Positions 38,313 through 40,796 of a stretch of DNA of 40,796 bases are shown piece by piece. The stretch's first letter is position 1. Every line of letters begins with the position of its first letter. A program made the translations under genes and the position numbers. The notes under the pieces were generated by a model. It was not told the origin of the DNA, did not search any database, and saw only the letters and a program-made list of their open reading frames with translations. Source of the DNA: Candidatus Erginobacter occultus. GTDB lineage: Bacteria; Auribacterota; Erginobacteria; Erginobacterales; Erginobacteraceae. The stretch is taken from contig JAVCCZ010000071.1 in assembly GCA_030765265.1 (NCBI GenBank), positions 1-40,796 on the forward strand, written 5' to 3'.

Positions 38313-38327
38313 TTTTGGTACTTGGTT

Positions 38328-39335
38328 ATGCGAGAGGCTCTGCTTTATGACAGGCTGGATGGGGAAGCGGTTTCCTGCCGCCTCTGCGCCCACCGCTGCC
38401 GGATCCCGGAGGGGAAGCGGGGCCTTTGCGGGGTCCGGGAGAATCGTGCCGGGACTCTCTATTCCCTGGTTTACGGGCAGGTGATCGCCCTCAACGCCGA
38501 CCCGATCGAGAAGAAGCCCCTCTTCCACTTCCTCCCCGGCACCCGGGCCCTCTCGGTAGCCACCGCCGGCTGCAATTTTACCTGCCGGCACTGCCAGAAC
38601 GCCGACATCTCCCAGTCCCCCCGGGAGAACGGAACCATCCCCGGCCGGGAAATCTCCCCCGCCGAGCTGGTCCGGGCGGCCCGCCGGGAGGGCTGCCGGA
38701 CGATCGCCTACACCTACACCGAGCCGACGATCTTCTTCGAGTACGCCCTCGATACCGCCCGCCGGGCCGCCGAGGAGGGGATCAAGAACGTCTTCGTCAC
38801 CAACGGCTATATGACCGGCGAAGCCCTGGAGATGATCGCCCCGGTTCTCGACGCGGCCAACGTGGACCTGAAATCCTTCCGCGACGAATTTTACCGCGAG
38901 GTCTGCGGCGCGAAACTGAAGCCGGTTCTGGAGACGATCAAGAAGATGCCGGAGCTGGGTATCTGGATCGAGGTCACCACCCTCCTCATCCCCGGCTACA
39001 ACGACTCGGAAGAGGAACTGGGAGAGATCGCCGGTTTCCTCTCCGGGATCGACTCCGGAATCCCCTGGCACGTCAGCGGCTTCTATCCCACCTACCGCCT
39101 GACCGACGCCCCGCCCACCCCGGCCGCCGCCCTGAGAAAGGCCCGCGAGATCGGAGAAGCGGCCGGGCTCCGCTACGTCTACACCGGCAACCTCCCGGGA
39201 GACGACGGCGAGAATACCTACTGCCACAGCTGCCGGAAGAAGATCGTCGAGCGGACCGGATACCGCCTGGGAGAAGTCAATATCCGGGACGGCACCTGCG
39301 CCTACTGCTCCACCCCCGCCGCCGGCGTCTGGTAG
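38328..39335 (+). CDS. amrS: AmmeMemoRadiSam system radical SAM enzyme
   Basis: CRLCAHRCRIPEGKRGLCGVRENRAGTLYSLVYG, VATAGCNFTCRHCQNADISQ, YTYTEPTIFFEY, NGYMTGEALEMIAP, C-terminal CHSCRKKIVERTGY. ATG at 38328 preferred to TTG at 38322. Confidence 0.93.
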   Translation: MREALLYDRLDGEAVSCRLCAHRCRIPEGKRGLCGVRENRAGTLYSLVYGQVIALNADPIEKKPLFHFLPGTRALSVATAGCNFTCRHCQNADISQSPRENGTIPGREISPAELVRAARREGCRTIAYTYTEPTIFFEYALDTARRAAEEGIKNVFVTNGYMTGEALEMIAPVLDAANVDLKSFRDEFYREVCGAKLKPVLETIKKMPELGIWIEVTTLLIPGYNDSEEELGEIAGFLSGIDSGIPWHVSGFYPTYRLTDAPPTPAAALRKAREIGEAAGLRYVYTGNLPGDDGENTYCHSCRKKIVERTGYRLGEVNIRDGTCAYCSTPAAGVW

Positions 39336-39341
39336 GGTGGG

Positions 39342-39389
39342 CAGCGGAATTTAACCGCTGGAATCTCTTGCTCTGGCTTCCCGCCAGAG
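39342..39389. terminator. Two adjacent hairpins downstream of amrS (possible terminator; no U-tract)
   Basis: CAGCGG-AATTTAA-CCGCTG (39342-39360) and CTCTGGC-TTCCC-GCCAGAG (39371-39389). Confidence 0.4.
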
Positions 39390-39852
39390 GGTGGCAGTTT
39401 CTCCTCCCGGCCGTTTTCCGCCTCAGGAGGGTTCCGATCGTCTGGAAAAAATTGAATTGTCCCCGGTGGGCTTGGCCAACCGGAGCATAAGTTTCATAGC
39501 CAAACCAATCCCTGAAACAATTGCCCCCGGCTGGCTTATCCGGCGCCCCCCGACTTGGAAAGTTGACGTGAAGCCCGGGGGATAGGCGGAATAGGTTGAC
39601 TCGATAGCTTTCTGGCCGTCCGCCAAGAACCGGGTCGGATTGTTTCTCCTCGGTCAACCAGAAGAATATTTCTTGTGGTTAGACGGGCCTGCTGCTAGCC
39701 TTCCTCCGTAAGGTATTCGCCTTGATACGCCTTGATCTTGGCTTCCGCCGGAGAAAAAGCGCTAGCCCAATATGATAGAAAAAATTCTATGTTTGTCAAT
39801 TTCAAGGCGAAAAATATTCAATATCATAGAACGAGTTCTGCTCAATAAATAG

Positions 39853-40633
39853 TTAGGCTTTCTATGCCATAATGCAAAGGTTATCAATGTAAAAAGGGAA
39901 ATGGAATGAAAGATAAATTAGTTGTCCCAGTTGAAAGAATAAGAAACATCATTTTTCTGATCCGGAGGCAAAAGATAATTTTAGATAGTGATCTCGCAGA
40001 ACTCTATGGTGTGGAAACGGGGGCGCTGAATCGCGCAGTTAAAAGAAATTCTGATCGCTTCCCAAAGGATTTTATGTTTCAGCTTACAGCACGAGAAGTT
40101 GAACGTTTGAGATGCCAAATTGGCATCTCAAAGAATGGGCGAGGAGGAAGACGCTATTCACCTTATGCTTTCACTGAACAGGGCGTAGCTATGCTTTCCA
40201 GCGTCATTAACAGCCGACGTGCCATAGAGGTAAATATTGAGATAATGCGGACTTTTGTCCAATTACGTAGATTTCTTTCAACTCAGGGTGAACTTAAGCG
40301 GAAGCTTGTTGAATTAGACGAACACCTGCGAGATCATGACCAAAAGATTCAAACTATTTTTGAAGCCATTAGACAACTTATGTCCCCTCTTCCTGAACCA
40401 CCTACAAGAAAAATCGGTTTTCATGTCCAGGAACGTCGAGCCGTTTACACGAAAAAGAAAGCGAAAAAGAAGTAGCTGTAAACTCAATCAGTAAGAATTA
40501 TAGATAAAAAGCCTAACAAACCGCTCAAGCAGACCGGAAGGGCGAATGCTACTGTCAAACATTTTTATTTCGCCGGTGTTTTTCCGGGTAGCATGGGTTT
40601 TTGGTCGGCCCCTTCCGGCAGCTTAGCTCTACG
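39853..40633 (+). mobile_element. Putative integron gene cassette carrying an ORF6N-domain gene
   Basis: Starts at G|TTAGGC (39852-39858), ends at the attC-like site whose R'' GCCTAAC is the exact reverse complement of GTTAGGC; lower GC than the flanking chromosome. Confidence 0.72.
39906..40475 (+). CDS. ORF6N domain-containing (KilA-N-like) DNA-binding protein
   Basis: VERIRNIIFLIRRQKIILDSDLAELYGVETGALNRAVKRNSDRFPKDFMFQLT...GGRRYSPYAFTEQGVAMLSSVINSRRAIEVNIEIMRTFVQLR. Confidence 0.92.
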   Translation: MKDKLVVPVERIRNIIFLIRRQKIILDSDLAELYGVETGALNRAVKRNSDRFPKDFMFQLTAREVERLRCQIGISKNGRGGRRYSPYAFTEQGVAMLSSVINSRRAIEVNIEIMRTFVQLRRFLSTQGELKRKLVELDEHLRDHDQKIQTIFEAIRQLMSPLPEPPTRKIGFHVQERRAVYTKKKAKKK

Positions 40634-40639
40634 TTCGCT
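40511..40639 (+). repeat. attC: attC-like integron recombination site (129 bp)
   Basis: R'' GCCTAAC, 5-nt spacer AAACC, L'' GCTCAAGC, stem CCGGAAGGG...CCCTTCCGG, L' GCTTAGC, 5-nt spacer TCTAC, R' GTTCGCT. L'' carries one extra (extrahelical) C relative to L'. Confidence 0.75.
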
Positions 40640-40741
40640 TGCGATCAAGAAACGTCCATTCGCTAAAAACACAAAATATATGTTGCATAATGCAGCGTTA
40701 TGTAGCATTGTGTCACAAGACTAGAAGATGGAGGTTTAATT

Positions 40742-40796
40742 ATGACTACCGCAGTAAGAATTTCTGATAAATTGGTAAGGGAAGCGAGGCTTGTCA
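40742..40796 (+). CDS. Partial CDS, ParD-like antitoxin N-terminus (cut by window end)
   Basis: GGAGG RBS at 40730-40734 then ATG: MTTAVRISDKLVREARLV..., resembling the start of ParD-like antitoxins. Confidence 0.45.
   Translation, partial: MTTAVRISDKLVREARLV

Follow-up and report, generated by a model that had tools for sequence, protein, structure and literature searches.

An attI-headed integron array without an adjoining integrase gene in Candidatus Erginobacter occultus, probably left by loss of intI

Background

Clusters of attC cassettes lacking an integrase gene nearby (CALINs) are thought to be degraded integrons (PMC9024848), and a functional integron integrase, IntI, can move their cassettes in trans (PMC12444791). 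Decay of intI, duplication of intI within a genome and arrays devoid of an integrase are all known (PMC2426708, PMC12444791, PMC9024848), as is the sequence of events in which such a duplication is followed by decay (PMC2426708, PMC12444791). Integrase-less arrays are usually counted through their attC sites alone and regarded as debris; outside class 1, attI is usually not sought (PMC9024848). In the sedentary integron of Xanthomonas, intI was lost and the array was kept, with a decayed intI and attI remaining at one ancestral locus (ilvD) and CALINs lying elsewhere. Class 1 and class 2 integrons have attI-type cassettes, in which attI is displaced from intI and sits inside arrays (PMC12901181), mostly as fragments of 14-18 nt downstream of an ORF.

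The array described here shares with CALINs the absence of intI next to its attC cassettes, but it is headed by a recognisable attI and retains the promoter of intI, whereas CALINs are defined on attC alone. It shares with the Xanthomonas integron the loss of intI from a retained array; in contrast to Xanthomonas, it is found at a locus other than that of the intact intI of its genome, and relatives hold intI-less, attI-headed arrays at several loci of one genome. Displacement of attI from intI is reminiscent of attI-type cassettes (compare the C35 contig of relative G003, below), although in this case an attI of ~99 bp lies upstream of the first cassette. The parts of the array are ordinary; an attI without an integrase, away from an intact intI and repeated across relatives, is less so. 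In the part of the literature that was covered, we found no account of a genome with several integrase-less arrays headed by attI, and no paper on duplicated attI or on ORF6N genes in integrons.

Methods

The window, i.e. the whole stretch of DNA analysed, comprises all 40796 bp of contig C234, which belongs to a draft genome (249 contigs, 87% complete; G000). It was compared with genome G001 of the same genus, with G002 and G003 (the latter 94% complete), and with G031, which represents another family of the phylum. An attC alignment and a covariance model were made from 23 sites from four genomes, and attI sites were searched for with a model (R1). Weak matches to the attI model were obtained in G096, G134 and G043; the first was dismissed, as the surrounding sequence shows no integron context, and the other two are treated as chance.

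Results and discussion

The site closing the first cassette (Table 1) is a genuine attC. It has the R''-L''-L'-R' boxes, the unpaired L'' base and the bottom-strand hairpin of an integron gene cassette, the bottom strand being the one that recombines. Folding of this strand, as the earlier note had proposed, gave the attC hairpin at -23.3 kcal/mol and a z score of -2.55, compared with -1.87 for the top strand. In the 23-sequence alignment (four genomes) the stem of 16 pairs is paired in 98.6% of cells, leaving one unpaired L'' base; the close similarity of the sites leaves little covariation. The window attC, itself a member of the covariance model, scores 146.7 bits, and the same model finds 1, 18 and 12 matches in G001, G002 and G003, respectively (1, 11 and 11 by plain DNA search). 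The search for more attC sites and for intI in the genome, also proposed in the earlier note, turned up attC paralogues at nine further places on five other contigs (DNA search; mostly 79-89% identical), as well as an intact intI on contig C75. A false attC is ruled out by these paralogues and by the structure; a search of 39300-40796 against Rfam gave no match.

The first cassette begins with a 10-nt complement of its own R'' region, GTTAGGCTTT, of which this is the sole plus-strand copy in the window, and the other complete cassettes read in the source genome obey the same rule. It was by this logic that the earlier note had drawn a cassette of 781 bp, from a shorter end-to-start match; its boundaries proved exact, as did every coordinate given for the cassette and its attC, and the contrast of an AT-rich cassette with GC-rich surroundings holds as well (41.9% GC, against 62.5% for the window). 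ORF6N domains are usually at home in phage regulators, and the gene had been called an unusual cargo. It is not a one-off cassette cargo here, because an ORF6N gene with 46% identity lies in an array of G003, with a short attC-like site of its own. The protein itself was assigned to no family in NCBIfam. The cassette had also been taken for a single one; a second cassette follows it directly, which rules out a lone cassette, and the suggestion of an array edge running off the window was borne out, the contig ending inside that next cassette.

Table 1. Features of the array and its left flank in the window
Feature	Position	Strand	Sequence or evidence
Radical-SAM gene (AmmeMemoRadiSam system type), left chromosomal flank	38322..39335	+	NCBIfam TIGR04337, 373 bits (cut-off 220)
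Putative strongly eroded intI 5' end	39577..39756	-	attI-anchored alignment
attI (assigned by homology)	39757..39854	+	87% identity to C75:1-99 (99 bp, gap-free)
Retained intI-type promoter, TTGACA-16-TATCAT	39772..39799	-	11/12 consensus matches
First gene cassette, 781 bp	39853..40633	+	10-nt complement, R'' region and cassette start
ORF6N-domain gene, 189 aa	39906..40475	+	Pfam PF10543, E 1.6e-34
attC of first cassette (R'' to R')	40511..40639	+	Paralogues in genome and relatives, conserved hairpin
attC R''	40511-40517		GCCTAAC, then spacer AAACC
attC L''	40523-40530		GCTCAAGC, one unpaired base
attC L'	40621-40627		GCTTAGC, then spacer TCTAC
attC R'	40633-40639		G|TTCGCT
Second cassette start, cut by contig end	40634..40796	+	~90% identical to C204 cassette (L014:780-1405)

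In the second cassette a ParD-like antitoxin reading frame begins at 40742, and its counterpart on contig C204 carries a complete ParD-like/ParE-like pair. The window's final 55 bp match C204:887-941 exactly, apparently as an assembly overlap. On C204 the array stops next to topA. In G003, topA and the radical-SAM gene, the latter with orthologues in four relatives, stand tail to tail, 37 bp apart with nothing between them, and G003 thus shows the empty version of the locus. As the two array ends adjoin genes that neighbour each other in G003, C234 and C204 most likely represent the two ends of one array, and in our reading a chromosomal integron array stretches from the radical-SAM gene to, most likely, topA, with its attI-proximal end in the window. 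In G001 the contigs bearing these two genes each break off shortly after the stop of the gene. The earlier note had named the lack of a covariance-model match, of attC sites elsewhere in the genome or its relatives, and of any change at the locus among relatives as what would overturn its reading; the model does match, many attC sites lie elsewhere and one relative has the locus empty.

A chimeric contig, in which the end of an integron was fused to unrelated chromosomal sequence, is conceivable in a draft assembly, where the contigs bearing arrays end at or near cassette repeats. We consider it very improbable. The window attI differs by 13% from the copy on C75, so that it is not a k-mer common to both; the topA contig carries the other array end, in agreement with the radical-SAM/topA neighbourhood of G003; and the same arrangement is seen in other genomes.

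Two further kinds of cassette-associated sequence were noticed. On G000:C98 (L018:763-1687) a partial attC runs into an IS66-type element (TnpB_IS66, Pfam E 7e-33). Repeated cassettes of ~200 bp without an ORF, with a different attC-like end (GTTGGCGCC...GGCGCCAACGGCGAGTTGAGC...GCTCAACTCGCCG), are present on C9 and C35 of G003 (L114, L115) and on C239 of the source genome (L015).

The ~99 bp preceding the first cassette are identified as attI by homology, since they correspond to the stretch adjoining intI on C75 (C75:1-99, immediately upstream of the one intact integron integrase detected in the source genome) and to the spacer between intI and the first cassette in G001, where the order is intI, attI, cassette, attC. 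This attI adjoins the first cassette, as in an integron platform, and scores 79.5 bits with model R1, of which it is a member. The ORF6N cassette sits at the attI crossover (G39852|T39853) and includes the two final bases of attI (TT). The earlier note had also considered insertion at a secondary G|TT site, and IntI-mediated insertion of cassettes at such attG-like sites away from attI is known (cited in PMC12901181 and PMC12444791). Here the insertion point falls within a homologue of the attI that accompanies the intact intI, and the 99 bp upstream are accounted for by that homologue, which leaves secondary-site insertion with hardly any probability.

Within attI the window retains an intI-type promoter, which also precedes intI on C75, yet in the window it faces no integrase gene. 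A palindromic motif, TAGAA-N4-TTCTA, overlaps this promoter at 39774-39790 and recurs ~51 bp away near the crossover, at 39826-39840; in G031 the two copies read AGCGATTTTGCT / AGCAAAATCGCT instead. It is possibly a binding site for a regulator or for IntI.

As the earlier note had observed, the window lacks an IntI. At this locus tblastn detected no IntI remnant, and a position-free nhmmer profile search without attI detected no intI remnant in the window. When alignment was anchored on attI, a weak colinear match to the 5' end of intI appeared at 39577-39756, equalled by 0/3000 random segments when the G001 gene was used and by 3/3000 with that of C75. This is only suggestive of an eroded 5' remnant of a lost intI. 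On C75, IntI is intact (start codon at C75:134; TIGR02249, 469.5 bits), with IntI 2a3v as its best PDB match (E 4e-91), and it is the only IntI over the cut-off in a genome whose completeness of 87% means that further intI could be missing. The intI-bearing contigs G000:C75 (L019:1) and G031:C6 (L194:1) both stop within 1-2 bases of the attI crossover, a pattern suggestive of several different first cassettes in the sampled population.

The locus therefore does not conform to an integron platform in which intI adjoins attI. As in a CALIN, no integrase lies near the attC, and this can be said even though the right side is off the contig, because the attI side, where an intI should lie, falls within the window. 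One attC is present in the window and three are on C204, the probable continuation (the two contigs are unjoined in the assembly). The label CALIN, offered as one option in the earlier note, thus fits the absence of intI beside the array, which is headed by an attI; the genome does have an IntI, on C75.

We suggest that an intI-attI platform at this locus lost its intI and kept attI and cassettes, which the IntI of C75 could probably use in trans; we put the probability of this reading at roughly 0.6. It is favoured because an intI promoter is kept without intI, because attI is homologous to an intI-linked stretch and agrees with the gene order of G001 while the locus is empty in G003, and because G031 shows several stages of intI loss beside attI. 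In that genome intI is intact on C6. A second intI (G031:C24:17049-17991; L216:9049-9991), with 91% DNA identity to the C6 copy, is frameshifted and still heads an array; the attI on C68 is accompanied by approximately the first 11 intI codons (anchored alignment, 0/2000); and the attI on C26 has no intI in the flank read. The sites on C26 and C68 share CAAAATCGCTGCTCAATCAAT with the intI-linked attI of G031 itself on C6, which implies that they were copied within the lineage or co-evolved with their IntI.

The other relatives carry attI-headed arrays away from any intI too. G002 has one attI on C397, a different contig from that of its intI. In G003, attI sites lie on C9, C35 (two) and C48, while no IntI reaches the family cut-off (in a genome 94% complete). 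The orphan attI sites on C9 and C35 show no intI trace by profile search, which speaks against platform loss. They would fit a scenario in which attI alone was copied to new loci, for example as attI-type cassettes that IntI inserted at secondary sites, the window locus never having had an integrase. The attI sites of G003 C9, G003 C35 and the window start at roughly one point, close to the 5' end of the intI promoter, with no clear intI remnants, and on G003:C35:18212-18261 (L115:8212-8261) an attI fragment within an array occupies the place expected of the fourth cassette's attC; attI-type cassettes are known to recombine in class 1 and 2 integrons (PMC12901181). In the window, by comparison, attI lies upstream of the first cassette, whose attC is normal. 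Against copying of attI alone stand the intI loss stages beside attI in G031, including the attI with ~11 intI codons, the suggestive intI remnant at the right distance in the window, and the retained intI promoter, which is more naturally a leftover. We therefore judge this scenario to be unlikely.

Divergence of the window attI bears on its age and present state. Its promoter half is 86.5% identical to that of C75, compared with only 77% between C75 and G001, which requires recent copying, homogenisation or constraint of the window attI. The same comparison does not fit a platform old enough for its intI to have eroded completely, unless attI has been homogenised or is constrained. The window attI aligns without gaps at 87%, whereas the adjoining putative intI remnant reaches about 50%, with gaps, which gives the impression that constraint still acts on attI. 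In relatives with more erosion, the ~47 bp of attI nearest the crossover outlast the promoter half, and we take this longer survival as a sign of constraint.

Loss of intI from a platform would also be the origin of the array if it were merely a relic, i.e. a dead array in which recombination has ceased and which persists through array-stabilising cassettes, including toxin-antitoxin ones; the two readings differ only in present activity. Decay of intI with fixed arrays is well documented, for instance in Xanthomonas (PMC12444791), and a ParD/ParE-type pair follows the first cassette. On the other hand, the genome has an intact IntI, and the full attC and attI architecture is kept, with a gap-free attI. 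A dead array accordingly appears somewhat unlikely to us.

For the platform-loss reading we propose the following course of events. A complete intI-attI platform would once have been present at the window locus, such platforms having spread to several loci of the genome. At most of these loci intI would have decayed or been deleted, leaving attI, the intI promoter and the cassettes behind. The IntI of C75 can probably still act in trans on the window attI and on the folded bottom strand of attC, which would render cassettes exchangeable at the window locus. The ORF6N cassette, adjoining attI, would then be the newest or the most readily replaced one.

Conclusions

The attI in the window belongs to a type that is conserved across one family and extends to a second family of the phylum. 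As a tentative further reading, for which we claim no great likelihood, the genome may harbour a dispersed integron, in which one integrase serves several scattered attI-headed arrays and orphan attI sites are selected as docking sites in trans. If that were true, a single induction of IntI would reshuffle many loci at once. Because attI can be recognised, one can test directly whether arrays lacking an integrase are dead or are served by an IntI elsewhere in the genome, and a set of homologous attI sites outside the class 1 model provides a basis for defining what attI requires.
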